In this document: positions 11,549 to 47,286 of the stretch, one piece after another
How positions within the stretch are numbered: the first letter of the stretch is position 1
Layout: each line of letters begins with the position of its first letter
Assembly: GCF_000337035.1 (NCBI RefSeq)
Contig: NZ_AOJL01000062.1
Coordinates: forward strand, 111,968 to 169,793
Direction of reading: 5' to 3'
Source of the DNA: Halorubrum coriense DSM 10284
GTDB lineage: Archaea > Halobacteriota > Halobacteria > Halobacteriales > Haloferacaceae
DNA length: 57,826 nt
The notes under the pieces: model-generated
Databases searched by the model: none
Told to the model about the DNA's origin: nothing
The model's input: the letters and a program-made list of their open reading frames with translations, nothing else
Made by a program: the position numbers and the translations under genes

Positions 11549-11572
11549 GGCTACAGGACCCATGTGTATCTC

Positions 11573-11584: not shown

Positions 11585-11830
11585 TGGTTGTTAGGCACTC
11601 ACACGAAATACGCCAGGCGATGTCACCATATGAACCAGTATGAATGTTACTCGCTGACCGGCCTGCCAACGGGTCCGAGCTTGTCACCTTGTTAGCGCGT
11701 GTGCGGTTTGTTCTCACCGCAGAGAGCCTTGACATCGATGATCCGAGTTTAGAAATCTATCTGAAGGCTCTGTTGAAATCCTATTCTTCAGACAGATTTT
11801 CGCCTGAAACAGCCGGTCGATGAGAGCTGC

Positions 11831-12022
11831 TTATTCTTCACTTGAATTGTCTCTATTGATGAATAGAATAACACCAATAGTGAGAAGAAAGAGACCCAGC
11901 AGAAGGTGGAACCAACCATCCGGAAAGTACCCAGATACATCGAGAAACACATCTACAAAAAGCAGCCCACTGACCGTAGTGAGGGCTATCACTTCGATGT
12001 TATCCGTAATACGCTGATCCAC
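11831..12022 (-). CDS. small two-helix membrane protein, 63 aa
   Basis: Starts with GTG at 12022 and encodes 63 residues with two hydrophobic helices (IEVIALTTVSGLLFVDVFL and FHLLLGLFLLTIGVILFI) joined by a short YFPDGW loop. No family is recognised. Its stop lies exactly 65 bp inside the left GGCTCTGTT repeat, and the transposase gene ends 59 bp upstream of it, so it sits inside the apparent IS. It may be a host gene captured between repeat copies. The start could also be internal, since no ribosome-binding site is visible. Confidence 0.55.
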   Translation of the reverse strand: MDQRITDNIEVIALTTVSGLLFVDVFLDVSGYFPDGWFHLLLGLFLLTIGVILFINRDNSSEE

Positions 12023-12080
12023 AACTATTTATTCAATTGATAGCCCGGTAGATCATAAGCCTACCTGTTGTATTGACCGT

Positions 12081-12902
12081 TTAGAGTGATCGGTCTACAT
12101 TATGAATGAGACAGGCGATGGTGAGTTCACGGAACTGCTTCCACCAGCGTCGTGACCGGACAAACGCACCGTACTTCCGCTTGAGTGTTGAGTTGACAGT
12201 CTCAGACTGGCTCCGCTGGCCGTAGAGGTCAGTATCTAAGCGCGCGTTCCATGCCTTGTGGAGCGATGTGAACTCACGATGCTTGATCAGTGGGCGAGCC
12301 TCGCGTTGCCGGGCTAGTCGCCTGATTTTCTGGTCGTCGTAGCCCTTGTCACCGAGTAGAACGTCAATACTCTCGGGATTGCGCTTGATCAACGACGGAG
12401 CAATCTGGCTATCGTGTTTTCGTGTCGTCGTCACGTGGAGATCGAGGATTGCGTTCACTTTCGTATCGACCAGCAGCGTCACTTTGAGCTGCTGAATCGT
12501 GAGTTCAGTTCGTTTCGTGTAATGTTTTGAGGCGTGACTGCGGTCGAATCCTGACGCATCAACCCCAACAACGCCGCTCGTCGGAAGTAGCGTCGCTGAG
12601 AGAGTCAATAGAACACGCCACACAGCCATATCAAGCCGATTGAACGCCTTACAGAGCGTTGAGGGCGTAGGAAGTTCAGTTAGCCCGAGAACACAACGGA
12701 TGCGTGGCATCTCGATCAGCTCGTCAAGCAGGCCACGATAGGTCGTGTTCTTCCGAACTTTGTGACACAGCAGAACGATGTGCTGAGGAAGTGTATAGCG
12801 GTGTTTAGAGAATTTTGAAGAGTATCGAGAGACAGCTCGACGCGCCAGATAGATCGCTTTCTCAGTAAACCGGAGAATCTGCGACTTCGGGAGGGCATTC
12901 AT
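12081..12902 (-). CDS. IS5-family-like DDE transposase
   Basis: A 273-residue transposase of the haloarchaeal IS5/IS1031-like type. The three catalytic acids can be placed at D115 (VVGVDASGFD), D185 (VLLGDKGYDD) and E234 (GQRSQSETVNS), followed by a Lys-rich KRKYGAFVRSRRWWKQ segment. The frame is intact and of full family length, so the enzyme may be active. The start ATG at 12902 follows the GGCTCTGTTGAAATCC right terminus by 52 bp. It is the likely source of the same terminal sequence scattered through the window. Confidence 0.88.
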   Translation of the reverse strand: MNALPKSQILRFTEKAIYLARRAVSRYSSKFSKHRYTLPQHIVLLCHKVRKNTTYRGLLDELIEMPRIRCVLGLTELPTPSTLCKAFNRLDMAVWRVLLTLSATLLPTSGVVGVDASGFDRSHASKHYTKRTELTIQQLKVTLLVDTKVNAILDLHVTTTRKHDSQIAPSLIKRNPESIDVLLGDKGYDDQKIRRLARQREARPLIKHREFTSLHKAWNARLDTDLYGQRSQSETVNSTLKRKYGAFVRSRRWWKQFRELTIACLIHNVDRSL

Positions 12903-28692: not shown

Positions 28693-29442
28693 ATGCCACG
28701 AGAAACAATCGTCCTCGTCGGGCGGAATGAGGTACAATCCGTCGCGGAGCAACACGCCGACCGATTACGGAACGCTGGTATCGTTGACACGGTCACCACT
28801 GCAACGTATGAGTTAGAACCAGAGTCGGAACTCATAGAGACACTATCGGACGTTCGTGGAGACCAGATTTATGCGGTTCCGATGTGCTTTGCACACACTC
28901 ACGAGACGCTGAAAGACATTCCCAGAGCCTTGAAGCGACTTTCCGGTGAGGTACAATATTGCGACCCAATCGGGAAGCACCAAGCTGTGACCGAAGCGAT
29001 TAGGAGCCGAGCAGTTGCGGCGAGCGACGCCAACGCACTCGTGCTCGTTGCCCTGGGGAACAGTCGTGACAGCCACGCGAGAACGGCTGCTACGTCCCAT
29101 GCGGCCCGTCTACGGGCCAGTTTCGACGAAGTTCGGACCACATATCTTCTCCAAAGTCCGGCCGTCGAATGCGCGCGGTACACGCTCAAGGCCGATCATG
29201 CGGTGGCGTGTCCACTATTCGTCAGCGAGTGCGAGGCGACACGGGACCGAATTCCCGAACAGCTCGAGTTACATCGCGGCGGTATCGACTACGCCGAGCC
29301 GTTCGGGGCGCACGATGCTGTCACCGACGCGATCGCTGTCGCGGTCAAGCGTGCTCGAGCGAACTCCAAGCCCTCGACGCCGAGTCCCGATCTCGTTGCT
29401 GACGCCGACCCCGTGGCCACGGACGGGCGCGGACGGGATTGA
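28693..29442 (+). CDS. CbiX-like two-domain protein lacking the N-terminal catalytic His
   Basis: A 249-residue protein made of two chelatase-like halves (about 1-115 and 116-230) in the CbiX/CbiK/HemH fold. Half 1 keeps the second His (VPMCFAHTHETLKDI), but the first motif reads IVLVGRNE where CbiX has GHGS. Half 2 reads VALGNSRDSH and CPLFVSECEATRD, also without the canonical pair. Family members insert Co2+ into sirohydrochlorin. Missing residues suggest altered activity, perhaps metal delivery. It converges on cbiE and sits at the edge of the cobamide locus, which supports a pathway role. Confidence 0.75.
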   Translation: MPRETIVLVGRNEVQSVAEQHADRLRNAGIVDTVTTATYELEPESELIETLSDVRGDQIYAVPMCFAHTHETLKDIPRALKRLSGEVQYCDPIGKHQAVTEAIRSRAVAASDANALVLVALGNSRDSHARTAATSHAARLRASFDEVRTTYLLQSPAVECARYTLKADHAVACPLFVSECEATRDRIPEQLELHRGGIDYAEPFGAHDAVTDAIAVAVKRARANSKPSTPSPDLVADADPVATDGRGRD

Positions 29443-29511: not shown

Positions 29512-30294
29512 CTAGCGGCGAACGATCAACACTGACAGGTCCGAAAACGGCGAGTCAGCGGGCTCATCACCGCCTTCGTGTCCGGCAAGATCGCGAAGCG
29601 TCGTTCGGGTAATCTGTTCGTCGTCGTGGGTAAGTCGCTCACAGACGAGCGCGTCTGCTCCTGGAGCGCCACCGTGCTTGAGCAGATCGGCGGCGATGTC
29701 GCCGGGCATCCAATCGAAGGGACGAGGTAACACGAGCAAGTGGCGCTCGCCAACATCGCGACGAAGCCGATTGATACCATCATCGAGATCGCCGCTCTTG
29801 TGTAGCGTGACGAAGGTCGCGTCCTCCATCGGGGTCCGTGACCGACTGGCTGCTATCTGTAGCGACGAGATCCCAGGGATAACATGTACGTCGATTGATT
29901 CTCCAGCCGCGTCGTCGACCGCTCGCTCGACCTTCCCGACAAACTGATAGCCAGAGTGGTTCGGATCGCCCATCAGGACCGCAGTGCCCCGCTCCCCGCG
30001 AGCCACACGGTCGGCGAACGTCGTCAGCGCCTCCGTCTCGTCGCGGTATCCGCACGTCAGACACTCTGCGTCGGTGCGGTCGCGGACGAACTCGACGACC
30101 GTCTCAAACCCTACGACCACGTCGGCCTCTCGAATCGCGCGCTCTGCTCGCGGCACGAGATACTCGGGGTTGCCCGGCCCGATTCCGACCGCGTGGACGC
30201 TCGCCGCCGAGCCGGTCGTGCGGTCGGGCTCCGGCCGCGCCGCGGCGTACGCCGCTGGGTCCGGACCCGAATCGAGGTCGTAGCTGTCCGTCAC
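29512..30294 (-). CDS. cbiE: cobalt-precorrin-7 C5-methyltransferase, CbiE
   Basis: A 260-residue SAM-dependent methyltransferase of the tetrapyrrole family. The N-terminal glycine loop VHAVGIGPGNPEYLVPRAER lies near 34-53, followed by GDPNHSGYQFVGK and VIPGISSLQIAASR. These features, and the pairing with a separate CbiT, mark CbiE, which methylates C5 late in corrin-ring synthesis. The first 30 residues are an acidic extension. It overlaps cbiC by four bases and is the last gene of the cobN-cbiC-cbiE unit. Confidence 0.9.
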   Translation of the reverse strand: MTDSYDLDSGPDPAAYAAARPEPDRTTGSAASVHAVGIGPGNPEYLVPRAERAIREADVVVGFETVVEFVRDRTDAECLTCGYRDETEALTTFADRVARGERGTAVLMGDPNHSGYQFVGKVERAVDDAAGESIDVHVIPGISSLQIAASRSRTPMEDATFVTLHKSGDLDDGINRLRRDVGERHLLVLPRPFDWMPGDIAADLLKHGGAPGADALVCERLTHDDEQITRTTLRDLAGHEGGDEPADSPFSDLSVLIVRR

Positions 30295-30998
30295 GGGCGC
30301 TCACCTCGGAGGGTCGCAAGCGACGTCTCGTTGTTCCGGACGTCGCTCGCGGCGTGGACCAACTCGTTCGTGAGGCCGGCGGCCAGCCCGGAGCCGCCGC
30401 GTCGACCGACGTTCGTGACCGCGGGCACGCCGTGCGCCGCGGCGACCTCCCGGATCCGCTTCCGGCTCTCCGTGGCCTTCACGAACCCGACCGGCGTCGC
30501 GACGACGACCGCCGGCCGTGTTCCCTGTTCGATACAGTCGGCGAGCGCAAGCGCGGCTGTCGGCGCGTTACCGACGACGGCTATCGCGTCGTCGTAGACA
30601 CCGCGCTCGTCGAGTTCAAGTACGCTCGCCGCGGTGCGGGTCATGCCGGTCTCTGCGGCGAGGTCCGCGCCGTTGCCGATCGCCTTTCTAACCTCACAGT
30701 TGTGACCGCGTCCCGTCACTCCGGACTTAACCATCGTGATGTCGGTCACGATCGGTCGCTCGTCAAGCACGGCTTCGGCTCCGGCCGCGACCGGGGCGTT
30801 CGCGAACCGCATCAGGTGCGCGAATTCGGGATCGCCGGTGGCGTGAACCGCCTTCGCGCACAGCCGGTCGGCCGGCGTCTCCTGCGGCACGATCTCGTGG
30901 ACGCGGTCCATGCTCGTCTCGGCGATGGCCATCGCGTCCTCAGTCGTCGCACCGAGGTCGGCGTACGCGTCAGTCTCTCCCTCCTCAGTCGTCATCAC
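30291..30998 (-). CDS. cbiC: cobalt-precorrin-8 methylmutase, CbiC
   Basis: A 235-residue protein of the precorrin-8X methylmutase family, which moves the C11 methyl to C12 to give cobyrinate. The catalytic His may be in VVKSG-like or GRGHNCEVRKAIGN context; the family segments PVAAGAEAVLDERPIVTDI, TRTAASVLELDE, AVVGNAPTAALALADCIEQG and ATPVGFVKATESRK are clear. It overlaps the end of cobN by 14 bp. ATG 30998 and 30995 are equivalent starts. Confidence 0.92.
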   Translation of the reverse strand: MMTTEEGETDAYADLGATTEDAMAIAETSMDRVHEIVPQETPADRLCAKAVHATGDPEFAHLMRFANAPVAAGAEAVLDERPIVTDITMVKSGVTGRGHNCEVRKAIGNGADLAAETGMTRTAASVLELDERGVYDDAIAVVGNAPTAALALADCIEQGTRPAVVVATPVGFVKATESRKRIREVAAAHGVPAVTNVGRRGGSGLAAGLTNELVHAASDVRNNETSLATLRGERP

Positions 30999-33900
30999 CG
31001 GTCACCTCCATCGGGTCCCGCGACGCGCGCTCCTCGATGTCGCCGTCGACGGTGAGGTTACGGTCTTGCAGCTCCCTGACGGTGTCCTCGTCGGCGTCCC
31101 AGAGCCCGCGGTCGATCGCCTCCAGCAGGGTATCCGTGATCGACTCCAGCGCCCACGGGTTGACATCACGCATCCAGTCGGCGCGATCGTTGTCGAGGGC
31201 GTACTTCTCTGCCACGTCACTCCAGAGTCGGTCAGAGACGACGCCGGTCGTCGCGTCCCATCCGAGCGCCACGTCGACCGTCTTCGAGAGGTCGCCCGCG
31301 CCCTTGTAGCCGTGTTCCTCCATCGAGTCGAGCCAGTCGGGATTGAGAACTCGCGCGCGCATGGCCTTCCGGACCTTCTCCTCGTTCGTGTAGACATCGA
31401 CGTTGTCCGGGTCAGAGGAATCGCCCACGTACGACGCCGGTTCCTCGCCGGCCACCTCGGTGACGGCGGTGATGAACCCTCCGTGGAACGCGTACCAGTC
31501 GGAAGAGTCGAACTCATCCTGTTCCATCGTGTCCTCGATCTTCACCGTCGCCTCGACGCTCCCCAGACGCCGCTCGAACGCGTCGTGCGCCGCGGAGGCG
31601 GTGCCGCGGGAGCCGAGGGCGTAGCCGCCCCACTGTACGTACACCTCCGCTAGGTCTGCGGCGTCGTCCCAGTTCCCCTCGTCGACGGCCTTGTTGGTTC
31701 CCGCGCCGTAGCCGCCGGGACGCGTCGTGAACACGCGGTGTCTCGCGGCCGCCTCAGGATCGTCGTGGCCGTCGGCGTCCAGCGCCTCGGCCTCCTCCTC
31801 GACATGTTTCTTCACGTAGTTCATCTCGTGCGGCTCGTCGAGATCGACCACCGCGTCGACCGCGTCGTGAATGACACTCGCCGCCTGCGGAAACGCGTCC
31901 CTGAAGAGGCCGGAGACGCGGGTCGTGGCGTCGATTCGGGGGCGGTCCAGCTCGTCGAGCGGGATCGGATCTACGTCGTCTATCCGCCCCGCGTCGGTCC
32001 AGACGGGTTCGACGCCCATCGTGGCGAGCACCTGCGCGATTGTCTCACCGCGAGTCCGAACGGTCGGCGTCCCCCACGCGACGACGCCAATCTCTTCAGG
32101 ATATTCGCCCTCCTCGTCATGATGGCGGGCGAGCGTGTCGGCAGCGATCTCGCGGCCGACATCCCACGCGGCCTTGGCAGGTACCTTCCGCGGGTCGAGG
32201 GTGTAGAAGTTCCGCCCGGTCGGAAGCAGGTCGACGCCCCCGCGAGTGGGTGCGCCGGAGCCGCCCGGCGAGACGTACTCGCCGGCCAGCGCGTCGGCCG
32301 TGCGCGGGATCTCCGCTTCGGCACCACGAACGCGAGGCGCCGCTTCCTCAGCGATGAACTGAAGCGCGTCCCGGAGCTCGTCGTGGGCGCCCCCCCGAAC
32401 GCGAGCGTCGCCCAGCGGGTCGATACCGACGATCAGCAGGTTGATCGTCGTCTCGTCGTCCGCGTCGGCGTCTGATTCCGACTCGGGCACGTCGAAGCCG
32501 TGGGCGGCCAGCGTCCGGACAAGCTCTTTGCTCGTTTCGTACACCTCGTCGGCGGCCTCCCCGTATGTCATGCCCAGCGTCTCGTCGTACTCGCCGGGGG
32601 CGTCGAGCATTCGCTCATAATCGACGCCGAGCACGCCGGCGACCGACTTCCGGAGGCTCGGCCCGCCGGGGTTCTCCAGGCGGGTGAGCGCGACGAGGTA
32701 CTCCACCAGGCGGTCGTCGACGGGCGGCTCGCCCATCGTGTGGAGGCCCAACCGAATCTGGGTGTTCTTCACGTCGGTCAGGTACGCGTGGATCCGCTCA
32801 ACGAGCTCCTTGACGGGCACCTCGTCGCCTTCGATGTCCCCCTCTGCGAGCGTCGTTCCGGCCGCGTCCGGCCCGCGAACGTCTGCTTGTTCGTCGACGT
32901 CGCCCGCGATCCCGAGCTCAACGGCGAGATCGAGGTCGTCGACCGTCTCGCGGATGAGAGCTTCGAGTCCGGCTCCCTCGTCGGTGCGGACCTCGGTGCC
33001 GCCGGCCTCGCGGTACCGCCGGGCGAGATCCTCCAGCTCGGTCAGCTCGTCGTAGCTGCCGGCGCGACGCATCACCGGGGTCAGGTAGTCCACGACGGCG
33101 GCGTACGAGCGGCGCTTCGCCTGGGTCCCCTCGCCGGGGTTGTTCACGATGTACGGGTAGACGTTCGGGAGGTCGTCGATCAGCCCGTCCGGGGCCGAAC
33201 CAGAGCCGAGCCCGACCGTCTTGCCCGGCAACCACTCCAACGAGCCGTGGGTGCCGAGGTGGACGACGGCGTCGGCGTCGAACTCGTTCCGGAGCCACCC
33301 GTAGAAGGCGACGTAGTCGTGTGGCGGCCACAGATCGGAGTCGTGGTACACCTTCTCCGGGTCCATGCCGAACCCGCGCGGCGGTTGGACGGTGACGAGG
33401 ACGTTCCCGAACTCGACGCCCGGGATCGCGAACGGTCGGTCGGGTGGGTCGCCCCACTCGTCGAGGACGCCGTCACGGAACCGGTCGCTTGCCGCGTTGA
33501 ACCACTCGGCGTACCGCGTCGGCGACACCGTGTCGACGCTGCGGTCGCGCACGTCGCCCGGCGCGACCCACCGGTCGTCGAGCGTGAGCTGGCCGGTGAG
33601 GACGTCGATTAGTTCCTCGCCGTCGGCGATCGGGCCGGCTGTCGTCCCGGCGCTCGCGGCCCCGTCGACTCCGGGTTTCGACCCGAGGTCGTACCCGCGA
33701 CCGTCGAGTTCATCCAGCAGGTTGACGGTCGATTCGGGTGAGTCGAGACCGAATGCGGTCCCGATCCCGTCATCGCTCGGTGGGTAGTTGTGTAGTACGA
33801 CCGCGATTTTCTTCTCGTCGTTCGGCGTGTGTCTGAGCCTCGCCCAGTTGACCGCGAGCCGTGCGGCGTGGTCGACGCGGTCCTCGATCGGGAAGTGCTG

Positions 33901-34917
33901 CTTGGGCGCGGAGCCGATGCCCGCGCTGTCGTCTGTGCGCTCTTTCCCCGAGATCGGGTGGGTGATGACGTTCCCGTCGAACTCGGGGAGCGCGACAGAG
34001 AGCGCGAGCTCGAAGCCCATCACGCCGGTGTCGCTCGACTCGTACCGGGAGCGCGAACGCATCGTCGTCACGGTCTGGATCACCGGGACGCCGAGTTCGT
34101 CGAGGAACACGCCCTCTGCGTCGGCGCCCTCGTCGGCCGCGTCGCGCCCGCGCTCGCTCATCGACAGCGAGAACATGAACGACGAGAGGACGGCATCGAC
34201 GACCGGCTCGTCTCGACCGTCGGTGAAGTAGTTCGTGGCCGTCCACTTCGCGTCCTCTTGATTCGCCTCGTCGCTGACCGGATTACAGAACACGGGCAGC
34301 ACGTTCGCCCCGAGGGCTTCCAGTCGGCGGACCTGCGCGTCGACGTACCGGACGTTCTCGTGCGTCCAGTGCGACTCGTAGAACCAGACGCCGACCGTCG
34401 GTGCGTCCGTGTCGAATGTCGCGATCAGCTCCTCGTAGTCTTCGCCGGGGTAATCGGGGTGGTAGACGCCCTCCGTCGGGAGTTCGATCGGATCGTCGAT
34501 CTCACCCGCGACTTCGCCGTCACCGTACTCCCGAGCGAGGAATCGCATCCCGTTCGAGATGTTGACCGTCCCCCCGTAGTCGAGGTACTCGGAGACAGTC
34601 GCCCGATCGGTCGGTGCAACGGTGGTGTCCTCCAGCGCGAAGGCGTCGCCCGTCGCTTTGACGACGAGCGGTACGTCAGCGTCGCGGAGCTCATCGACCG
34701 CGAACTCGTACGCCGGCATGCTGTCTTGTCCGCCGTGGAGCCAGAGGACGACCGCCGCCGCGTCTCTGAGCTCGTCCACGAAAGACGCCACGTCGCGCTG
34801 CTCGTCGAGGTCGCTTTCAGACCGAACGACGAGATCGATACCCGAGAGTTGCCCTGCGGCCGTCTGGACTGCTCCCAGCTCGTTCTCCGTCGCGGTGTAG
34901 AGGCCGATTTTTGTCAC
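30985..34917 (-). CDS. cobN: cobaltochelatase large subunit, CobN
   Basis: A 1310-residue protein of the CobN/BchH family. Recognisable parts include YIVNNPGEGTQAKRRSYAAV, VHLGTHGSLEWLPGKTVGLG and RVFTTRPGGYGAGTNKAVDE with WGGYALGSRGTASAAHDAFE. It inserts cobalt into hydrogenobyrinate a,c-diamide in the late (aerobic-type) route, with an ATPase partner. Start is GTG 34917, supported by an AGAGGAGG site 11 bp upstream. It is divergent from the ChlI/ChlD fusion, its probable ATPase, across only 33 bp. Two acidic insertions (near 660-700 and 1080-1100) fit a halophilic protein. Confidence 0.95.
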   Translation of the reverse strand: MTKIGLYTATENELGAVQTAAGQLSGIDLVVRSESDLDEQRDVASFVDELRDAAAVVLWLHGGQDSMPAYEFAVDELRDADVPLVVKATGDAFALEDTTVAPTDRATVSEYLDYGGTVNISNGMRFLAREYGDGEVAGEIDDPIELPTEGVYHPDYPGEDYEELIATFDTDAPTVGVWFYESHWTHENVRYVDAQVRRLEALGANVLPVFCNPVSDEANQEDAKWTATNYFTDGRDEPVVDAVLSSFMFSLSMSERGRDAADEGADAEGVFLDELGVPVIQTVTTMRSRSRYESSDTGVMGFELALSVALPEFDGNVITHPISGKERTDDSAGIGSAPKQHFPIEDRVDHAARLAVNWARLRHTPNDEKKIAVVLHNYPPSDDGIGTAFGLDSPESTVNLLDELDGRGYDLGSKPGVDGAASAGTTAGPIADGEELIDVLTGQLTLDDRWVAPGDVRDRSVDTVSPTRYAEWFNAASDRFRDGVLDEWGDPPDRPFAIPGVEFGNVLVTVQPPRGFGMDPEKVYHDSDLWPPHDYVAFYGWLRNEFDADAVVHLGTHGSLEWLPGKTVGLGSGSAPDGLIDDLPNVYPYIVNNPGEGTQAKRRSYAAVVDYLTPVMRRAGSYDELTELEDLARRYREAGGTEVRTDEGAGLEALIRETVDDLDLAVELGIAGDVDEQADVRGPDAAGTTLAEGDIEGDEVPVKELVERIHAYLTDVKNTQIRLGLHTMGEPPVDDRLVEYLVALTRLENPGGPSLRKSVAGVLGVDYERMLDAPGEYDETLGMTYGEAADEVYETSKELVRTLAAHGFDVPESESDADADDETTINLLIVGIDPLGDARVRGGAHDELRDALQFIAEEAAPRVRGAEAEIPRTADALAGEYVSPGGSGAPTRGGVDLLPTGRNFYTLDPRKVPAKAAWDVGREIAADTLARHHDEEGEYPEEIGVVAWGTPTVRTRGETIAQVLATMGVEPVWTDAGRIDDVDPIPLDELDRPRIDATTRVSGLFRDAFPQAASVIHDAVDAVVDLDEPHEMNYVKKHVEEEAEALDADGHDDPEAAARHRVFTTRPGGYGAGTNKAVDEGNWDDAADLAEVYVQWGGYALGSRGTASAAHDAFERRLGSVEATVKIEDTMEQDEFDSSDWYAFHGGFITAVTEVAGEEPASYVGDSSDPDNVDVYTNEEKVRKAMRARVLNPDWLDSMEEHGYKGAGDLSKTVDVALGWDATTGVVSDRLWSDVAEKYALDNDRADWMRDVNPWALESITDTLLEAIDRGLWDADEDTVRELQDRNLTVDGDIEERASRDPMEVTGDDD

Positions 34918-38473: not shown

Positions 38474-39298
38474 CTAGAACGCGTCCGAATCGAGCACCCG
38501 GTGAGGCACGTTCCTATCCCGGAGCTTGGAGGTGTGTCGCGGGATCTCGTCGGTCACCGCGACCAAGAGAACGTCGAGGCCGAGCATCCCTGCCTCGGCG
38601 ACGCCCTCTGCGGTCCCGAATCTAATGTCCGGGTCGACGTCGCTCTGAGAAACGAGCGAATAAGCCTCCGTCCCGGCGACCGCAACGAGTCCCTCGTCCG
38701 GAACGTGTGTCGAGACCATGTCTGGACTCAAGCGGTCGTCATCGGTGACAGTCGGGACGGGCAATACCGACACGTTGCCTGTGTCGTAGTCCACGACGCC
38801 CTCGAAGTCGGCGACACCAACGGCCTCGCCTTCTTTGGCGCTCGTGACGGTAACCGCGGTCGCGGTCCCACCGGCAGGGTTGGCGTGGAGCACGCCGTCT
38901 CGCATCACCAGTCCGACCTCCGTTCCTTCTGCTACGTTGTTGAGCGCGATAGCAGCGTCAACCTCAACGCTCCCAAGCACGTCGGAGTTCACGTGGTCAA
39001 GATACGCCTCCAAATCATCAGTCCGAGAAATGAGCCAATCGACCCCCTCCTTCGTCACTTCGTACCGGCCGCGACCACCCTTCTCAACGTAGCCGGACTC
39101 AACTAGATCGCGAACGTAATCACTAACAGCCTGCGAGGTCACGCCGATCGTCTCCGCAATTTCGCTTTGACTCACGGCCGGCTGGCGGGAAGCGATTTCC
39201 ACGAGCACTTGATAGCGCGTGGCGCTTCGCTTGTTCTCGAGGACGTCCGGCGATCCTCCACTCGTTGAGTCATCCATCACAGGACTTTCAGATGCCAT
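38474..39298 (-). CDS. winged-helix transcriptional regulator
   Basis: A 274-residue protein with an N-terminal winged helix (ATRYQVLVEIASRQPAVSQS, then EIAETIGVTSQAVSDYVRDL at about 46-65 and the wing GGRGRYEVTKEGVDW). The C-terminal part (about 95-274) is a beta-rich, Val-rich ligand-like domain with GEAVGVADFEGVVDYDTGNV. It converges on the cbtBA unit and is divergent from the cbiT operon, 129 bp away. By position, it is the best candidate for a cobalt- or cobamide-responsive regulator of this locus. ATG 39298 and 39277 are both possible. Confidence 0.82.
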   Translation of the reverse strand: MASESPVMDDSTSGGSPDVLENKRSATRYQVLVEIASRQPAVSQSEIAETIGVTSQAVSDYVRDLVESGYVEKGGRGRYEVTKEGVDWLISRTDDLEAYLDHVNSDVLGSVEVDAAIALNNVAEGTEVGLVMRDGVLHANPAGGTATAVTVTSAKEGEAVGVADFEGVVDYDTGNVSVLPVPTVTDDDRLSPDMVSTHVPDEGLVAVAGTEAYSLVSQSDVDPDIRFGTAEGVAEAGMLGLDVLLVAVTDEIPRHTSKLRDRNVPHRVLDSDAF

Positions 39299-39427: not shown

Positions 39428-39997
39428 ATGCAGGCGACAAAGCTACCGAACGATGCGAAAGCGGGGCCGACCAAGCCCGAGGTCCGTGCGGTGTTGGCGC
39501 GAAAGCTCGCGCTCGGTCCCGACGACCACTTCGTTGAGGTCGGCTCTTGTACCGGCGCGGTAACGATCGAGGCCGCTCGACGCGCGGGGCGGGTGACAGC
39601 ACTCGAACGGAGAGGGGAACGGCTCGAAGCCACTCGAGCGAACCTCGCCGCGAACGAGTACGACGCCGACGTACAGCTCATCAACGCCGAGGCGCCGGAA
39701 CAGCTTCCGGAGGACGGTGACGTGGTTTTCCTCGGCGGATCGCGAAACTACGAGTGCGTTCTCGACGCCGCTGTCGCCGCCGGCTACGATCGGATCGTTA
39801 TGAACGTCTCCCGTCTCGAGGTCGCGGGAGAGGCGGCTCGGGCGTTCCGCGACCGCGACCTCCTCGACGAAGTGCTCTGCCTCCAGATGGCGACCGGTTA
39901 CGACCTCGCGGGCGCGACGAGCTTCGACGCCGACAACCCGGTGTACATGCTCGTCGGCGAGCCGGGCTCTAACAACGATCTGGGTGGCACCGCATGA
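39428..39997 (+). CDS. cbiT: cobalt-precorrin-6B C15-methyltransferase (decarboxylating), CbiT
   Basis: A 189-residue class I methyltransferase. The SAM-binding strand and loop read HFVEVGSCTGAVTIEAARR at about 37-55, where Ser-Cys replaces the usual Gly, followed by VTALERRGERLEATRANL and DGDVVFLGGSRN. It is CbiT, which methylates C15 and decarboxylates the C12 acetate. It is the first gene of a plus-strand operon to about 47.3 kb and overlaps cbiL by four bases. Confidence 0.9.
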   Translation: MQATKLPNDAKAGPTKPEVRAVLARKLALGPDDHFVEVGSCTGAVTIEAARRAGRVTALERRGERLEATRANLAANEYDADVQLINAEAPEQLPEDGDVVFLGGSRNYECVLDAAVAAGYDRIVMNVSRLEVAGEAARAFRDRDLLDEVLCLQMATGYDLAGATSFDADNPVYMLVGEPGSNNDLGGTA

Positions 39998-40737
39998 CCC
40001 TGTACGGCGTTGGACTCGGTCCCGGCGCTTCCGACCTGATCTCCGTTCGCGGCCGGGAGATCCTCGACGGCGTCGACGTGGTGTACTCTCCGGGTCGACT
40101 CTCGCGTGCGGTCGCAACCGAACACGTTCCAGAGAGCCGGATCGGGGACCTCGATTTCCCGATGACGAGCGACGAGGACCGGCTGCGCGAGGCGTGGAAG
40201 GAGGCTGCGGCCGAGATCGCCCCCGAAGCGCGCGACGGCGACGTCGCGTTCGTTACGCTCGGCGACCCGAACGTGTACTCCACGTTCGGACACCTCAGAC
40301 GGACGCTCGATGCGTTCCATCCCGACATCGGCGTGGAGATCGTACCTGGGATCAGCGCGATGACGGCGTTCGCGACGGCGCTCGACGTCGAGGTGGAAGC
40401 CGGCGCCGGACTCGCGCTCCGCGAGGCCGCCGGCGGGCGCGCGCCCACCGGGCCCGACAGGATGGTCCTATTCAAAGTGACTGACGCCCCCGAGACGGCC
40501 CGCAAACTCGACCAGGCGGGATACGACGTGCGGTTCGGGCGGCGGCTGTTCATGGAAGCGGGCGAGACGGTCGTCACCGCAGACGCAGAAAGGGTCGCGG
40601 ACCGCGACTACTACACGCTCGCGTACGCCGAGCGACGCGGCCTCGAGACGTCGCGGGCGACCGACGAATTCGCGGCCGACGCGGACGCGAACAGCCGCGT
40701 CTCCGCGACCGCTGACCCGGAGGTGAGCGATGACTGA
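39994..40737 (+). CDS. cbiL: cobalt-precorrin-2 C20-methyltransferase, CbiL
   Basis: A 247-residue tetrapyrrole methylase. The glycine loop TLYGVGLGPGASDLISVRG is at 2-20 and the substrate loops are FVTLGDPNVYSTFGHLRR and VEIVPGISAMTAFATAL, which match CbiL/CobI. It adds the C20 methyl, an early ring step. The C-terminal 30 residues are an acidic tail. It overlaps cbiT by four and cbiF by eight bases. Confidence 0.92.
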   Translation: MTLYGVGLGPGASDLISVRGREILDGVDVVYSPGRLSRAVATEHVPESRIGDLDFPMTSDEDRLREAWKEAAAEIAPEARDGDVAFVTLGDPNVYSTFGHLRRTLDAFHPDIGVEIVPGISAMTAFATALDVEVEAGAGLALREAAGGRAPTGPDRMVLFKVTDAPETARKLDQAGYDVRFGRRLFMEAGETVVTADAERVADRDYYTLAYAERRGLETSRATDEFAADADANSRVSATADPEVSDD

Positions 40738-41662
40738 CGAACCGGTTGATTCGCAGGCGGTCATCAACGCCGTCGGCGACCGGACAGCAGACGACCTCGA
40801 CCCGCGAGTCCACGAGTACACCGCGGGCGAAGGTCAAGAGGGAATTCCGTTTATCGGTGCCGGGCCAGGCGATCCCGGTCTCCTCACCGTGCGTGGCAAG
40901 GAACTGGTCGACGACGCCGACCTCGTCGTCCACGCCGGGTCGCTGGTCTCTAGCGCGCTCTTAGAGGAACACTGCGCGGACGCGGAACTGGTGAACTCCG
41001 TAGGGAAGGATCTTGAAGAGCTGATCCCGCTGATGCGAGACGCCCACAAGAGCGGACGCACCGTTGTCAGACTCCACAGCGGTGACCCCGCGGTGTACGG
41101 CGCCGCACTCGAGCAGATCGATGCGCTCGAACGCGAGGGCGTCCCGGCGTACATCGTCCCCGGTGTCACGTCGTCATTCGCGGCGGCGGCGACGCTGCGC
41201 ACCCAACTCACGCTGAACGGCGTGGCGAACCACGTTGCGTTCACGCGTCCGCGCGGAAAAACGCTTGATGCCGAGGACGACCACGTCGCCGAATTTGTCG
41301 AGATGGGGGACGTGACGACCTGTATCTACCTCGGCACCCACGCGGTGAGCGACACAATGGACCGCCTGCTTGACCGTGACGGTGTCGACCCGGAGACGCC
41401 GGTCGCGGTCGTCTATCACGCCTCGTGGGACGACGAGGACGTGATCACCGGATCGATCGCCGACATCGGCGAGAAGGTAGAGTCGGCCGGCTACCGTGCG
41501 TCCGCGATGGTCCTCATCGGCGAGGCCGCGACGGGTGCGGGGTACGAGCGGTCGTTCCTCTACGGCGACTGGGCGAACAGCGGAGCAACGGACGCGGCAA
41601 GCGGCGAACCGGACGACGCAGCGGACGCCGCGGAGACGACCGAAACGGAGGCTGACGACTGA
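40730..41662 (+). CDS. cbiF: cobalt-precorrin-4 C11-methyltransferase, CbiF
   Basis: A 310-residue tetrapyrrole methylase. IPFIGAGPGDPGLLTVRGKE at about 39-58, VVRLHSGDPAVYGAALEQID and AYIVPGVTSSFAAAATLRTQ, with FTRPRGKT, are CbiF/CobM features. It transfers the C11 methyl. The acidic N-terminal 35 and C-terminal 30 residues (TDAASGEPDDAADAAETTET) are haloarchaeal additions. It overlaps cbiG by one base (TGATG). Confidence 0.92.
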   Translation: MTDEPVDSQAVINAVGDRTADDLDPRVHEYTAGEGQEGIPFIGAGPGDPGLLTVRGKELVDDADLVVHAGSLVSSALLEEHCADAELVNSVGKDLEELIPLMRDAHKSGRTVVRLHSGDPAVYGAALEQIDALEREGVPAYIVPGVTSSFAAAATLRTQLTLNGVANHVAFTRPRGKTLDAEDDHVAEFVEMGDVTTCIYLGTHAVSDTMDRLLDRDGVDPETPVAVVYHASWDDEDVITGSIADIGEKVESAGYRASAMVLIGEAATGAGYERSFLYGDWANSGATDAASGEPDDAADAAETTETEADD

Positions 41663-42666
41663 TGAGCACCGACAGCGATGACGGGACGAACGCGAGTAGC
41701 ACCGACACGACCGACGACTCCGGCGGGGGGCACTGTTCGACTGCGGACTCGGACGGCGAAGTGGCGGAGGAGATAGCAGTCATCAGCTTCGAGCGAAAGC
41801 TCGACACCGCCACAGAGATCGTCGAGGGGATCGGCGACCGCTACGAGTCAATCGACGTGATCGAGTACCACGGCGATGTGTTCGCCGAGCATTGGGGCGA
41901 GTACGACTGCTTCGTCGGACTGATGGCCTCTGGAATCGCCATGCGGAAGACCGCGCCGCTGCTCGACGACAAGTGGGACGACCCCGCGATCGTCGTGGTC
42001 GACGAGGAGCTCACGTGGGCGATCCCGATCACCGGCGGTCACCACGGCGCTAATCAAGTGGCGGATGACCTCGCGACGCTCGGCGCCGTGCCGGCGATGA
42101 CCACCGCTTCGGAGGCGGCGGACAAACAGGGCGTCGAGAAGCAGGCGAAGGCACTGTCCTCACACGTCGTTAACGGCGATTCCACGGTCGCGACGAACTT
42201 GGCCGTCCTTGACGACGAACTCGGCCCGGTCGAACGGCTCGACGGGCCGCGGGCGGTGGTAGTCGACGACGACGTGACGGTCCTCAAACGAAACCTCAAC
42301 GACGGGATTGTGCTCGGCACAGGCTCCGTCTCGGGTGCGGACGAAGACCGGTTCCTTGGCGCGTGGGACCGCGCCCTCGACGAGCTCGACCGCGACTGGG
42401 CTGACGTCGAGTTCGTCGCCACCGCGACGCGAAAAGCCGATGAAGAGGGGCTTCTCTCCGCGGCGGCGACGCGTGACGTTGGCGTCGTCGCGTTCGACAA
42501 GGAGACCCTGCTTGAGTTTGAGGGACCGACGCCCTCGAAGGCGAAAGAACTCATCGGCTGGCCAGGTGTTGCTGAGGCGAGCGCTATCGCCGGCGGCGCC
42601 GACCACGAACTCGTCACAGAGAAGACCAGATACGAAAACGAAGTGACCGTGGCGGTGGGGCAATGA
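41662..42666 (+). CDS. cbiG: cobalt-precorrin-5A hydrolase, CbiG
   Basis: A 334-residue protein with a Ser/Asp-rich front followed by the CbiG N-terminal domain (CFVGLMASGIAMRKTAPLL, IPITGGHHGANQVADDL), a mid region and the CbiG C-terminal domain (LLSAAATRDVGVVAFDKETL, ELIGWPGVAEASAI). CbiG opens the delta-lactone and releases the two-carbon C20 unit as acetaldehyde, a step of the anaerobic (early-cobalt) route. It overlaps cbiH by four bases. Its presence supports early cobalt insertion. Confidence 0.92.
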   Translation: MSTDSDDGTNASSTDTTDDSGGGHCSTADSDGEVAEEIAVISFERKLDTATEIVEGIGDRYESIDVIEYHGDVFAEHWGEYDCFVGLMASGIAMRKTAPLLDDKWDDPAIVVVDEELTWAIPITGGHHGANQVADDLATLGAVPAMTTASEAADKQGVEKQAKALSSHVVNGDSTVATNLAVLDDELGPVERLDGPRAVVVDDDVTVLKRNLNDGIVLGTGSVSGADEDRFLGAWDRALDELDRDWADVEFVATATRKADEEGLLSAAATRDVGVVAFDKETLLEFEGPTPSKAKELIGWPGVAEASAIAGGADHELVTEKTRYENEVTVAVGQ

Positions 42667-43613
42667 CCGGGAACGGCTCGGTGCCCGGCGGTGCGGACGA
42701 CGCGCCGAACGACATGGGAACGCTGTACGTCGTCGGTATCGGTCCGGGACTCCCGCACGCGATGACGCAGCGTGCCCGCGACGTGATACGCCACGCCGAC
42801 TGCGTGATCGCGTCGAACCTCTACCAAGAGTTCCTCCGTCGGGACGGGACTATTCCCCCCGAATCGCAGATAGAGGACGCCGCCGCCACAGACGGCGGTG
42901 CCGCGGTCAACACGGCCGACTCGACCGACAACGCTGGCTGGACGGCCGGAAACATCGGCACCCATCCCGACGGCGAGACCGTCGAGATCGTACGGTCCTC
43001 GATGGGGCAGCAGATCGAACTCGCCCGTGAGGCGTTCGAGCGCGTCCGCGCCGGACAGGACGTGGCACACGTCTCTGGCGGCGATCCCAACGTGTACGGG
43101 AAGTCCGACCTCGTCTACCTGATGGCCGACGAGGACGACGCCGACGACGTCCCGATCGAGATCGTGCCCGGCGTGACGGCCGCGCTCGGCGGGGCCGCGA
43201 TGGTCGGCGCGCCGCTCTCGAACGACTTCTGTACGATCTCATTATCAGACAAGTGGCGCGGATGGGAGGAGATCGCGGAGAAGCTCCGTGCCGCCGCAGT
43301 GTCGGGGTTCACAATCGTCCTCTACAACTGCTGGCGCGACTACGAGCGCGCGATCGAGGTGCTCCGGGAACATCGCACCGACGACGCCTCGGTCGCGATC
43401 GTCAACGACGCCGGTCGGGGTGAGGCCGGCCGCAACCTCGACGACGAGACGTACACGCTGACGACGCTGGGCGAGGCGACCGACCACGGCGACGAGGTCG
43501 GCGGCATGGGTACGTCCCTGATCGTCGGCACCCACGAGACGGAAGTCTGGGAGAACGACTACGACCGGTTCCTCGTCACCCCACGTGGCGGGCGAGATGT
43601 CGATGACTTCTGA
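42663..43613 (+). CDS. cbiH: precorrin-3B C17-methyltransferase-like protein 1, CbiH type
   Basis: A 316-residue tetrapyrrole methylase. TLYVVGIGPGLPHAMTQRAR at about 20-39, VAHVSGGDPNVYGKSDLVYL and IEIVPGVTAALGGAAMVGAP are CbiH/CobJ features. A 60-residue acidic insertion near 60-100 (with DGGAAVNTADSTDNAGW) separates the first two blocks. CbiH methylates C17 and contracts the ring. A second CbiH-like gene follows two bases downstream, and one of them may have taken a different methylation. Confidence 0.88.
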   Translation: MTGNGSVPGGADDAPNDMGTLYVVGIGPGLPHAMTQRARDVIRHADCVIASNLYQEFLRRDGTIPPESQIEDAAATDGGAAVNTADSTDNAGWTAGNIGTHPDGETVEIVRSSMGQQIELAREAFERVRAGQDVAHVSGGDPNVYGKSDLVYLMADEDDADDVPIEIVPGVTAALGGAAMVGAPLSNDFCTISLSDKWRGWEEIAEKLRAAAVSGFTIVLYNCWRDYERAIEVLREHRTDDASVAIVNDAGRGEAGRNLDDETYTLTTLGEATDHGDEVGGMGTSLIVGTHETEVWENDYDRFLVTPRGGRDVDDF

Positions 43614-43615
43614 TA

Positions 43616-44659
43616 ATGAGTGACACAACCTGCGGATCGACGGACGAATCGAGCTCTAATTGTGGCGGCAACGATCCCGAGACAGCAATTGACGACAACG
43701 CGGCGAGCGATGGGGGCTGCGCAGCGAACGACGCGGCCACCGATGGCGGAGCAGCGACGGAGAACAAGAATGCGTCGTCGCCGTCGTGCGGCGCGAGCGA
43801 CTCCAGCGGCTCCTCCTCGTGCGGTACATCGAAATCGGCGGCGACGGACGAGAAGGTCGGATCGACTGCTGACGACTTCGACGCGGACCCGGGGCGGCTG
43901 TTCGCCGTCGGACTCGGTCCCGGGCAACCGGAGGGGATGACTCAACGCGCCCGGGCGACGCTGCTGGAGGCGGAACACATCGTCGGGTACACGACGTACA
44001 TCGACCTGATTCCGGACGACGTCACCGAGGCCGCCGACGAGCTGTACGACACGCCGATGTGCGGCGAGGTCTCCCGGACCGAAGAAGCGGTCGACCGGGC
44101 GCTCGCGGGTAACGACGTCGCCATCGTCGGCTCCGGTGACCCGAACGTGTACGCGCTCGGTGGGCTCGCCCTTGAGATCATCGAGTCGAAGGGCGCGACG
44201 GCCTCGGCGCTCGACTTCGAGGTCGTCCCCGGCGTCCCGGCCGCGCAGTCGTGTGCCGCTCGCGTCGGCGCGCCGCTCGTCAACGACTCGGTGTCGATCT
44301 CGCTGTCGGACCACCTCACGCCGATGGCGGACATCGAGTCGCGACTCCACGCGGTCGCGGCCGAGGGATTCACGATCGCGATATACAACCCGTGGAGTCG
44401 GAAGCGACGCGAGAACTTCGAGACAGCCTGCGAGATCCTCTTGGAACACCGGCCGGCCGACACGCCGGTGGGCGTCGTCCATGGTGCCGGGCGCGACGAC
44501 GAGGCCGTCGAAATCGTCGAACTCGGCGAACTGAAGTCCCTCGGCGAGACCGACCTTATCGACATGACGACCACCCTGCTCGTCGGCAACGAGGAGACGT
44601 ACGTCTGGGACGGCCAGATGATCACCCCGCGCGGCTACGAGAGCAAGTATGACTACTGA
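43616..44659 (+). CDS. cbiH: precorrin-3B C17-methyltransferase-like protein 2 with a Cys-rich N-terminus
   Basis: A 347-residue protein. Residues 90-347 are a tetrapyrrole methylase (LFAVGLGPGQPEGMTQRARA, VAIVGSGDPNVYALGGLALE, VVPGVPAAQSCAARVGAPLV, IAIYNPWSRKRRENF), closest to CbiH by motif. Residues 1-88 are low in hydrophobics and contain Cys6, Cys16, Cys35, Cys58 and Cys69, mostly in SxCG context, a possible metal-binding tail. It overlaps the ferredoxin-like gene by 11 bases. This copy has the more classical YNPWSRKR segment and is the better candidate for the true C17 enzyme. Confidence 0.88.
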   Translation: MSDTTCGSTDESSSNCGGNDPETAIDDNAASDGGCAANDAATDGGAATENKNASSPSCGASDSSGSSSCGTSKSAATDEKVGSTADDFDADPGRLFAVGLGPGQPEGMTQRARATLLEAEHIVGYTTYIDLIPDDVTEAADELYDTPMCGEVSRTEEAVDRALAGNDVAIVGSGDPNVYALGGLALEIIESKGATASALDFEVVPGVPAAQSCAARVGAPLVNDSVSISLSDHLTPMADIESRLHAVAAEGFTIAIYNPWSRKRRENFETACEILLEHRPADTPVGVVHGAGRDDEAVEIVELGELKSLGETDLIDMTTTLLVGNEETYVWDGQMITPRGYESKYDY

Positions 44660-44960
44660 GCGGGTGGACGCCAAGCAAGGGGAAGCCAAGCGTGTCGACA
44701 CCGAGGCGACGTACCGCGTTTCCGTCGATCTAAGCGCCTGCGACGGCGTTTTCGCCTGCCTCGTCCGTGACGACCGATTCGTCGAGGCAGACGGCGGGCT
44801 CGTCGGCTTCGACCCCGCAGACGCTGTGGCCCCGATCGAACGCACCGCCGACGAGGTTGCCGCAACGTTTCGTGACGAGCGTATCGACGAGGCGCAGGCG
44901 GCCGCGGCGGCCTGTCCGCTGGACGCGATTACCGTCGAGGAACACGAGGGGAAGACATGA
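44649..44960 (+). CDS. ferredoxin-like protein, three Cys
   Basis: A 103-residue protein with Cys31 and Cys37 (SACDGVFACLV) and Cys89 in AAAACPLDAITVEE. The CPLDAI end and the short beta strands match ferredoxin folds, but only three Cys are visible instead of four or eight, so a 3Fe-4S or incomplete 4Fe-4S cluster is possible. It lies inside the cobamide operon with four- and 11-base overlaps. A role as electron donor for cobalt reduction or a ring reductase step is inferred from context. Confidence 0.72.
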   Translation: MTTERVDAKQGEAKRVDTEATYRVSVDLSACDGVFACLVRDDRFVEADGGLVGFDPADAVAPIERTADEVAATFRDERIDEAQAAAAACPLDAITVEEHEGKT

Positions 44961-45670
44961 GCGCCGCCGAGACGACGCCGGACGATATGCTCGCTCGACA
45001 CCCGGAGATAGCGTACTTCTGGGGCCACGTCGCGGGCGGCGGCCAAGTGACCGAGAAAGGGATTGAGATCGAAGTCGCGGACGAAGACGCCGCACGCCGG
45101 CTGTCCGCGATCGCTGGCGGCGGGACGGTCGATCATCGAATCGCCGAACGCGACTTCGCACACGACACGGCAGTCACCCGCCAGGCCGACGAGTACACAG
45201 TTCAGATCATCGATCCGACGCTGGCTGCGAACGCCGCCGCGGCGCTCGGATTGCCGGTGGGATCGGACCGCGGCGGGTATCGGTTCGACGCCCTCCGTGA
45301 CCACCGTCGAGAGCTGCTTCGCGGGCTGTTGGAGGCGTGCGGCGTCGTCTGCTTCCGCGAGTCGAGCGCCGCGGTCGGCATCTCGTTCGTCCACGATGAC
45401 GCTCGACTGCTAGAGCGGATCCGAACGACGCTCGACGCGACGGGATTTGACGCCGAGGAACCGCAACCGTCGTCGTCGGGTGGCCACTGGTTCGGTGTCG
45501 CGGACACCGACACGACCGCCTTCGCCGAGTGGGTCTACGAGGGGGCCGGCGATAGCGGGCTGTTCGCGACGAACCGTCGCCGAAAGACGCTCCGAAGCGT
45601 CGAGCGGGCCGCGGGTCTCGATGTCGGAAGCCTCATCGAACCGACCGACACAGACGGAGGAGACTCATGA
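44957..45670 (+). CDS. operon protein with a degenerate LAGLIDADG-like fold
   Basis: A 237-residue protein with two similar halves. Residues 19-29 (AYFWGHVAGGG) and 120-131 (LLRGLLEACGVV) are placed and spaced like the two LAGLIDADG helices of homing endonucleases and WhiA, each followed by a beta-hairpin (GIEIEVADEDAARRLSA; GISFVHDDARLLERI). The catalytic acid position is Gly or Cys, so nuclease activity is unlikely. It is locked in the operon by four-base overlaps on both sides. It may bind nucleic acid, or use the fold for a cobamide step. The assignment is from pattern only. Confidence 0.55.
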   Translation: MSAAETTPDDMLARHPEIAYFWGHVAGGGQVTEKGIEIEVADEDAARRLSAIAGGGTVDHRIAERDFAHDTAVTRQADEYTVQIIDPTLAANAAAALGLPVGSDRGGYRFDALRDHRRELLRGLLEACGVVCFRESSAAVGISFVHDDARLLERIRTTLDATGFDAEEPQPSSSGGHWFGVADTDTTAFAEWVYEGAGDSGLFATNRRRKTLRSVERAAGLDVGSLIEPTDTDGGDS

Positions 45671-46884
45671 GCCGGGCGGCAGATGCCGTCGGAATCGGTG
45701 ACGAAGAGACCGCGCTGCTCGTCGGCCACGGCTCTCGTCGCGACAAGTCGAACGAGGCGGTACGCGAGCTCGCGGCTGGTCTTGAGGACCGTCTCGGCGT
45801 TTCGACCGACGCCGCCTTCCTCGAACTCGCGGAACCGTCAATCCCCGAAGCCATCGGCACACTCGCGCACAGTTCGTCACGGATAACGATGGTGCCGTTG
45901 TCGCTTTTCGCGGCCAGTCACGTCAAAAACGACCTCCCACTCGCTGTTGAGCGAGCGCGGAGTGAACACCCGGGCGTTACCTTTCACGCGGGCGCGCACC
46001 TCGGTATCCATCCGGCGATACTCGATCTCCTCGACGACCGAGCGCGGGATGTGGAGGCGGAGCTAGGCGTCGGCCGCGATGAAGATGATGTCGCCGTCGT
46101 GGTTTGTGCCCGCGGCTCGTCGGACCCGGACTCAAACGCCGACGTACACAAACTCGCCAGGCTCCTGTACGAGGGCCGCTCGTTCAATCGGGTGGAAGCC
46201 GGGTTCATCGGTGTCACCGAACCGCTCCTCGACAAGGTGCTCCACGACGTCGCGAAGACGCGACCGGACGCGATCGTCGTGTTGCCGTACATGCTCGGTG
46301 ACGGCGTCTTGACTGGTCGAATCCGCGACGGGGCCGCAGAGTTCGACGCGGGGTACCCCTACGTCGACGCCGCGGCCGGCGACCCGCTCGGAACGGACAC
46401 CCGACTGCTGGACGTTCTCTCAGACCGGTGGCAGGAGGCGCGGACCGACTCGGTCGACATGTCGTGTGACACGTGTAAGTACAAAGTCGAACTCGACGGG
46501 TACGAAGAAGACGAGGGCGGGGCACGCGCGATGCTCCGTGCACTGACCCACCAGCAGGCACACGAAGACCGCGACGATGTCGCCGACGAACCGCACGCCC
46601 ACGATGCTCCCGAGACACACCTCGCCGTCTGTACGAATCAGACCTGCGCGGCGGACGGCTCTCCCGCCGTTCTGGAAAACCTTCGTCAGGCCGCCCGAGA
46701 CGCCGACATGGACGTACACGTCACGCGCTCGTCGTGTTTCGATCAGTGCGGCGACGGCCCGATCGTCGCGCAGTATCCCGATGGGGTATGGTACGGCAAC
46801 TGCGACGACGAAGACGCCGACCGAATTGTCTCCGCCGTCGAGCGGGAACGAATCGTTAGCGACCTTGTTCACCAAACGCTATAA
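45667..46884 (+). CDS. cbiX: sirohydrochlorin cobaltochelatase CbiX with a C-terminal 2Fe-2S domain
   Basis: A 405-residue protein. The first half has the canonical CbiX pair: H21 in LLVGHGSRRDKSNE and a His in MVPLSLFAASHVKNDLP. A second half (about 135-265) has VVVCARGSSDPDSNADVHKL and IVVLPYMLGDGVLTGRIRDG. A Cys-containing linker (SCDTCKYK) follows, then a thioredoxin-like 2Fe-2S domain with AVCTNQTCAADG and SSCFDQCGDGP. It inserts Co2+ into sirohydrochlorin, the early route. The ferredoxin domain may supply or sense electrons. It overlaps the previous gene by four bases. Confidence 0.9.
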   Translation: MSRAADAVGIGDEETALLVGHGSRRDKSNEAVRELAAGLEDRLGVSTDAAFLELAEPSIPEAIGTLAHSSSRITMVPLSLFAASHVKNDLPLAVERARSEHPGVTFHAGAHLGIHPAILDLLDDRARDVEAELGVGRDEDDVAVVVCARGSSDPDSNADVHKLARLLYEGRSFNRVEAGFIGVTEPLLDKVLHDVAKTRPDAIVVLPYMLGDGVLTGRIRDGAAEFDAGYPYVDAAAGDPLGTDTRLLDVLSDRWQEARTDSVDMSCDTCKYKVELDGYEEDEGGARAMLRALTHQQAHEDRDDVADEPHAHDAPETHLAVCTNQTCAADGSPAVLENLRQAARDADMDVHVTRSSCFDQCGDGPIVAQYPDGVWYGNCDDEDADRIVSAVERERIVSDLVHQTL

Positions 46885-46908: not shown

Positions 46909-47286
46909 ATGAGCTGTGACGAAATTGAGGCCCTGCGGCTCGGGCTTATGAACACCCTCGGAACCTCGGATGACGCCGTTCGACGCCACGCAGAGCAGGA
47001 ACTCGGCGATAAACTGAACGAAGATACACCGATCGCCGCGCTCGCGGGAGCCGAATCCGTAGCTGAACTCCAACGCCATCTCGACGCTACACTCGTCGGC
47101 TTGGAGGAAGAAGTGGCAACCCTCGACTCGGACGATCCAGAATACGCGTACACTCGAGGCCGCCTCGTGGCCGTTCGAGACGCCGAGAGATCGCTGGCTC
47201 GACTCGCCGACGCGGGCGAGTCGTTCCTCGACGACCTCGGGGATTCCCATCACACGCTTCACGAGGTGTTCCCTACCGAGGAGTGA
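46909..47286 (+). CDS. DUF3209-like protein
   Basis: A 125-residue acidic, all-helical protein beginning MSCDEIEALRLGLMNTLGTS, with DRAR-like RGRLVAVRDAERSLARLADA and a C-terminal HHTLHEVFPTEE. It matches the DUF3209 family, found beside cobamide genes. The His pair near the end could bind metal. It starts 24 bp after cbiX2 and ends the operon. Function is unknown. Confidence 0.75.
   Translation: MSCDEIEALRLGLMNTLGTSDDAVRRHAEQELGDKLNEDTPIAALAGAESVAELQRHLDATLVGLEEEVATLDSDDPEYAYTRGRLVAVRDAERSLARLADAGESFLDDLGDSHHTLHEVFPTEE

Follow-up and report, generated by a model that had tools for sequence, protein, structure and literature searches.

A LAGLIDADG-fold protein encoded in a haloarchaeal cobalamin operon: a probable non-nuclease accessory and possible cobalt-handling partner of CbiX

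The window analyzed, a stretch of 57,826 nucleotides from Halorubrum coriense DSM 10284, carries a cobalamin biosynthesis operon in which one gene, termed P0001, encodes a protein that almost certainly adopts the LAGLIDADG fold and very probably serves as a non-nuclease accessory in cobalt-early B12 synthesis. As deduced from its sequence and genomic context, P0001 might act as a cobalt-handling partner of the cobaltochelatase CbiX, a role that is put forward tentatively and is considered to fall somewhat short of probable. LAGLIDADG proteins whose function does not involve DNA or RNA would be unusual, and in the literature searched, as far as its accessible text reached, no paper was found that ties the P0001 gene family to the LAGLIDADG fold.

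The operon run consists of cbiT, cbiL, cbiF, cbiG, cbiH1 and cbiH2, followed by the genes for a ferredoxin (Fer4_15), P0001, CbiX with a 2Fe-2S domain and a DUF3209 protein:

39428–39997, forward strand: cbiT-like methyltransferase, starting the run; the name cbiT is derived from its position and from the gene list of PMC8305020 (HVO_B0062)
39994–40737, forward strand: cbiL (NF004063, over cut-off)
40730–41662, forward strand: cbiF (best match TIGR01465, below cut-off)
41662–42666, forward strand: cbiG (NF004465, over cut-off)
42663–43613, forward strand: cbiH1, paralogue (TIGR01466, below cut-off)
43616–44659, forward strand: cbiH2, ring-contraction C17-methyltransferase (TIGR01466, over cut-off)
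44649–44960, forward strand: small Fe-S ferredoxin, Fer4_15 (Pfam PF13459, E 6e-10)
44957–45670, forward strand: P0001, LAGLIDADG-fold cobalamin-operon protein, 237 aa, ATG to TGA
45667–46884, forward strand: cobaltochelatase CbiX with a C-terminal thioredoxin-like 2Fe-2S domain (Pfam PF01903, E 1.1e-48; PF01257, E 7.8e-6)
46909–47286, forward strand: DUF3209 protein, belonging to the module shared with P0001 (Pfam PF11483, E 1.1e-51)

The initial annotation had described the gene as being locked into the cbi operon by four-base overlaps, and this description was confirmed: ATGA is shared on both sides of P0001 (ferredoxin end at 44960, cbiX start at 45667), and the order cbiH2-Fer4_15-P0001-CbiX on one strand was found at 44 of the 45 loci of relatives, locus L029 of genome G044 being the exception. 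The gene is under purifying selection, with dN/dS values between 0.09 and 0.22 against seven relatives, which lies within the range of its operon neighbors. The closest named locus originates from Halorubrum californiense (96% protein identity), and several relatives are named ‘cobalamin biosynthesis protein’ in plasmid annotation.

Two further genes of the window touch on cobalamin synthesis. An HTH protein encoded on the reverse strand (38474–39298; MarR_2, E 2.2e-9; DUF7839, E 2.2e-28), its gene being oriented divergently to the operon at the cbiT side, is a likely regulator of the operon. A second, distant CbiX-like protein (28693–29442, forward strand; PF01903, E 2.5e-16) adjoins divergent cobN, cbiC and methylase genes at 29512–34917. 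In genome G044, a diverged P0001 relative (31%) is located outside of the operon (L057, 6826–7422) and adjoins a rhodanese-like gene and two cation-diffusion-facilitator-like genes, these names being read from the translations. The same locus also features an ORF of 693 aa (10362–12443) resembling a dCTP deaminase, which, as read from its translation, apparently harbors an intein bearing a LAGLIDADG motif.

Taken by itself, the P0001 protein of the window yielded no LAGLIDADG match in Pfam, NCBIfam, PHROGs or the PDB; matches to Pfam and NCBIfam were absent at E-values up to 10, PHROGs likewise contained no match, the comparison with PDB sequences returned one chance match (E 0.47), and a profile search of PDB sequences likewise returned chance matches only (best E 0.23). 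At the level of the family, Pfam PF14528 (LAGLIDADG_3) matched 13 of 21 diverse relatives (best E 2.7e-5). When ten relatives were scanned singly, eight matched PF14528 around motif 2, the best of them with 21.9 bits, which is under the curated cut-off of 22.5. Profile comparison by means of hhalign related the C half of the family to 28 haloarchaeal intein LAGLIDADG_3 repeats (taken from 30 loci, L084 and L109 being excluded as cut short) with a probability of 93.8 and an E-value of 1.8e-7 over 73 columns, as compared with 0.0081 for the reversed C-half profile and 0.016 for the best among 20 column shuffles. The N half achieved an E-value of 7.5e-4 over 75 columns against the intein repeats, and between the N and C halves of P0001 themselves hhalign detected no repeat similarity (probability 0.6).

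Structure prediction with AlphaFold2 on 11 sequences provided two low-confidence models with mean pLDDT values of 54 and 52, the second one being a trimmed version of no higher confidence. The predicted order of elements, at this low confidence, is alpha-beta-beta-alpha-beta-beta-alpha, occurring twice, and each motif ends a helix that is followed by a pair of beta strands, in agreement with the earlier description of two helices, each with a beta-hairpin, at the places of the LAGLIDADG motifs. The fold comparison that had been called for placed LAGLIDADG nucleases and WhiA at the top of the Foldseek results: for both low-confidence models, the best 50 listed matches all belonged to these two groups, with best E-values of 8.4e-5 and 5.4e-5 and TM-scores of approximately 0.3, which are low because the two halves of P0001 are packed unlike those of known structures. 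In the VIA alignment, the N repeat of the low-confidence model superimposed on I-DmoI with a Z-score of 7.1 and an rmsd of 2.9 over 75 residues, and the placement of the halves relative to each other was not reproduced by the model (rmsd approximately 13); the best Z-scores of 7.1 and 7.7 lie below the safe level of the tool, unrelated structures beginning at 5.6 and 5.5. The features that characterize the LAGLIDADG superfamily, namely the repeat topology, in which the first helix terminates in the motif, and a sequence relation to known families, were thus both encountered, and the fold relation is well supported by the profiles and the structure models jointly.

The motifs and the conserved cysteine and histidine residues are located as follows:

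45011–45043, forward strand: first LAGLIDADG-like motif, AYFWGHVAGGG, residues 19–29, position 8 being G28
45161–45163, forward strand: codon of H69, conserved in 68 of 68 relatives
45314–45349, forward strand: second LAGLIDADG-like motif, LLRGLLEACGVV, residues 120–131, position 6 being E126 and position 8 being C128
45338–45340, forward strand: codon of C128, site of the catalytic acid, conserved in 66 of 68
45350–45352, forward strand: codon of C132, conserved in 68 of 68
45392–45394, forward strand: codon of H146, conserved in 64 of 68

G28 and C128 are indeed the glycine and the cysteine that had been noted at the catalytic places of the window protein. The further statement that the protein is catalytically dead holds in part: both position-8 acids are lost in the window protein, and motif 2 features a cysteine at position 128 in 66 of 68 distinct relatives (one alanine, one threonine, an acid in none), but the glycine of motif 1 is not characteristic of the family, since position 28 is occupied by Asp in 30, Gly in 14, Ser in 13, Ala in 8 and Asn in 3 of these relatives, and motif 2 retains its other acid, E126, in all 68. 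Catalytic acids at position 8 of both motifs, as expected for LAGLIDADG homing endonucleases, were therefore not found in the P0001 family. Nor does the gene reside inside an intron or intein or show a scattered occurrence; it is free-standing and fixed in operon order, and no relative of P0001 was found in the viral contigs scanned. The fold and the motif relation would also be accounted for if the gene were an active homing endonuclease, or one in decay, that had inserted into the operon; the cysteine in place of the motif-2 acid, the selection on the gene, which is as strict as in the cbi genes, and its conserved place leave this explanation with a practically negligible probability.

The initial annotation had also considered a regulatory function. 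According to such a reading, P0001 would regulate transcription of the cobalamin operon in the manner of WhiA, with the LAGLIDADG saddle as its DNA-binding part. WhiA was among the Foldseek matches, the LAGLIDADG domain of Mycoplasma gallisepticum WhiA can, according to the accessible text of PMC11701221, bind DNA and ATP, and the C-terminal helix of P0001 is basic, with R207 and K210 being present in all 68 relatives. However, the net charge per 100 residues amounts to −11.6 for the C repeat and −7.8 for the N repeat, as compared with an average of −0.1 for the 28 haloarchaeal intein repeats; the repeats are thus unlike an expected DNA-binding saddle, even though the C-terminal helix is basic. 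Moreover, no HTH occurred among the Pfam matches listed for 21 members, P0001 stops 19 residues past its last predicted helix and thereby lacks the C-terminal HTH of WhiA, and the separate divergent MarR/DUF7839 gene adjoins the operon. Regulation by DNA binding is accordingly disfavored and appears unlikely.

To follow up the proposed co-occurrence with cbi genes, 293 Halobacteriales genomes were searched. P0001 was detected in 149 and CbiG in 152 of them; as determined by comparing the two match lists by eye, 147 genomes contained both, 5 CbiG only, 2 P0001 only and 139 neither, which substantiates the association. Among 246 genomes from the phylum, all 21 that matched P0001 belong to the order of the window. 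The CbiG-only genomes are G043, G045, G068, G134 and G280. As for the P0001-only genomes, the match in G133 lies at a contig start, and the one in G303 (E 1.4e-4), which lacks CbiG and CbiX, is probably an unrelated LAGLIDADG protein, albeit counted among the 149. Loci L009 and L019 apparently represent one species. Four of the CbiG-only genomes (G043, G045, G068, and G280) possess minimal operons, within whose 16-kb regions no ferredoxin, P0001 or DUF3209 is encoded and CbiX is devoid of the 2Fe-2S part; DUF3209, absent there, accompanies P0001 in L116–L118. These minimal operons form one group in the trees (support 94/97 for CbiG and 91/98 for CbiH2). G134 lacks no part of the module other than P0001, retaining the ferredoxin, CbiX-2Fe2S and DUF3209.

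This distribution bears on the suggestion that P0001 performs one of the steps with no assigned enzyme, i.e., that it fills the gap left by CbiD (C1 methylation) or CbiJ (reduction). Both families were absent from all 293 Halobacteriales genomes, with the positive controls being matched in other genomes, and the accessible text of PMC8305020 calls four unassigned genes of the cluster, HVO_B0055 included, obvious candidates. However, cbiL, F, G, H1, H2 and X are kept in 5 of the 152 CbiG-positive genomes, namely those with the minimal operons and G134, although none of the five possesses P0001, CbiD or CbiJ. Because all three are missing from these CbiG genomes, it is improbable that P0001 is the enzyme in question. 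Furthermore, no cofactor-binding family was recognized in P0001 by Pfam or NCBIfam, and CbiH1, present in all of those genomes, is the better candidate for the methylation. The suggestion is hence disfavored and regarded as highly improbable. The list of open candidates in haloarchaeal B12 synthesis is narrowed by this result, since HVO_B0055, the ferredoxin and DUF3209 are argued not to be the missing CbiD or CbiJ, and CbiH1 is left as a shared candidate for the methylation.

The proposal of a cobalt-handling partner is derived from the tail of CbiX. A His-rich tail with 9–12 His in 25 residues was found on CbiX in all five CbiG-only genomes and in a sixth genome, G523, in which P0001 is not near that CbiX. 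CbiX lacks such a tail at all 49 P0001-positive loci examined, featuring 3–6 His in 25 residues. In G134, an extra, His-tailed CbiX (L113, 10703–11644) occupies the slot of P0001 between the ferredoxin and the usual CbiX-2Fe2S. This copy is most similar to its own CbiX neighbor (63%), which suggests a separate origin of its tail, and four congeners of G134 possess P0001 and one CbiX without a His tail. Since the four minimal operons group together, the replacement pattern corresponds to about two independent events, that group and G134, and because the minimal operons miss the entire module along with P0001, G134 is the one case in which P0001 can be told apart from the remainder of the module. 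In tblastn, CbiX of G195 and G181 was split across frames (L036, L137–L141), possibly due to frameshifts or assembly errors. According to the accessible text of PMC7689651, insertion does not require the extension of Bacillus CbiX-L that is rich in His and bears Fe-S; metal storage and delivery were proposed as the function of this extension. In light of this published role and of the alternation between P0001 and the His tail, P0001 is proposed for the same job.

The absence of Fer4_15, P0001, CbiX-2Fe2S and DUF3209 as a unit from the four minimal operon regions would also fit a redox or scaffold function, in which P0001, jointly with the ferredoxin and the 2Fe-2S domain of CbiX, would let the cobalt-early, anaerobic-type pathway run in oxygen by shielding cobalt-corrinoids, or channelling them, in the vicinity of CbiH2 and CbiX, with P0001 itself carrying no cobalt. 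COX1 (heme-copper oxidase subunit I) was detected in 65 of 68 genomes selected from the 154 that were positive for P0001 or CbiG, and the three without it (G043, G045, and G068) all belong to the four genomes with minimal operons, so that the module (ferredoxin, P0001, CbiX-2Fe2S, and DUF3209) seems to suit the cobalt-early pathway to oxygen-respiring cells. This idea is weakened by G280, which lacks the module and yet has COX1, by the bd oxidase present in two of the three COX1-less genomes (G045 and G068), and by the grouping of the four minimal operons, which reduces them to a single contrast. In addition, the idea does not account for G134, where a His-tailed CbiX takes the place of P0001. 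A redox or scaffold function without cobalt binding is therefore considered rather unlikely.

Returning to the role as a cobalt-handling partner, P0001 would be built of two LAGLIDADG-fold repeats, would no longer function as a nuclease and would partner the early cobaltochelatase CbiX. H69, C128, C132 and H146, the only Cys and His residues conserved in more than 80% of the 68 relatives, could form a putative metal site, with C128 occupying the once catalytic position of motif 2 and C132 following closely behind. Such a Cys/His site may hold Co(II) and hand it to CbiX, which would amount to the function that the literature suggests for the His-rich CbiX-L tail, and the ferredoxin together with the 2Fe-2S domain of CbiX might keep the hand-over of cobalt reduced in oxygen-respiring cells. 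Against the Cys/His site count the 4 of 68 relatives without H146 and the 2 of 68 without C128. Against the partnership counts the diverged copy of G044 outside of the operon. In favor of the replacement pattern, CbiX of this genome, in which P0001 lies away from the operon, features the 2Fe-2S domain and no His tail. The wider evolutionary scenario, namely that a homing-endonuclease fold became a cobalt metallochaperone, its DNA-cutting metal site being turned into a Cys/His cobalt site that feeds CbiX and, in haloarchaea that respire oxygen, takes over from the His-rich chelatase tail, is speculative and remains doubtful.

Compared with known systems, P0001 corresponds to HVO_B0055 of Haloferax volcanii, which occupies the same slot between the ferredoxin gene and cbiX, as matched by gene order and not by sequence. 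The accessible text of PMC8305020 leaves the function of HVO_B0055 in the cobalamin cluster unassigned and mentions neither a LAGLIDADG relation nor a metal role. WhiA (DUF199), a transcription factor composed of LAGLIDADG and HTH parts, shares with P0001 the LAGLIDADG fold without nuclease activity (Foldseek matches 8dy9, 8dy7, and 3hyi), whereas P0001 has no HTH, possesses acidic repeats and resides in a vitamin operon. The repeat topology is common to P0001, the haloarchaeal intein LAGLIDADG_3 (PF14528) repeats, I-DmoI and I-Tsp061I, and the likeness extends to the motif, as illustrated by FLRGLFDADG of intein locus L103 and LLRGLLEACG of P0001, within the same hhalign relation; unlike the intein repeats, P0001 features Cys in place of the motif-2 catalytic acid, is a fixed operon gene and is net acidic. 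CobW, which chaperones Co(II) for the late cobaltochelatase CobNST, resembles P0001 in the job proposed and in its gene adjoining a cobaltochelatase, and has a Cys-based Co(II) site according to the accessible text of PMC7689651. However, CobW is a GTPase with a CxCC motif, and P0001, being without a Pfam or NCBIfam match, does not show the G3E GTPase relation of COG0523/CobW. Finally, CbiX-L of Bacillus megaterium, with its MXCXXC 4Fe-4S site and His-rich tail, matches the layout of CbiX in the minimal haloarchaeal operons (MSCDxC plus His tail), whereas CbiX of the P0001-bearing genomes carries the 2Fe-2S domain where the tail would be.
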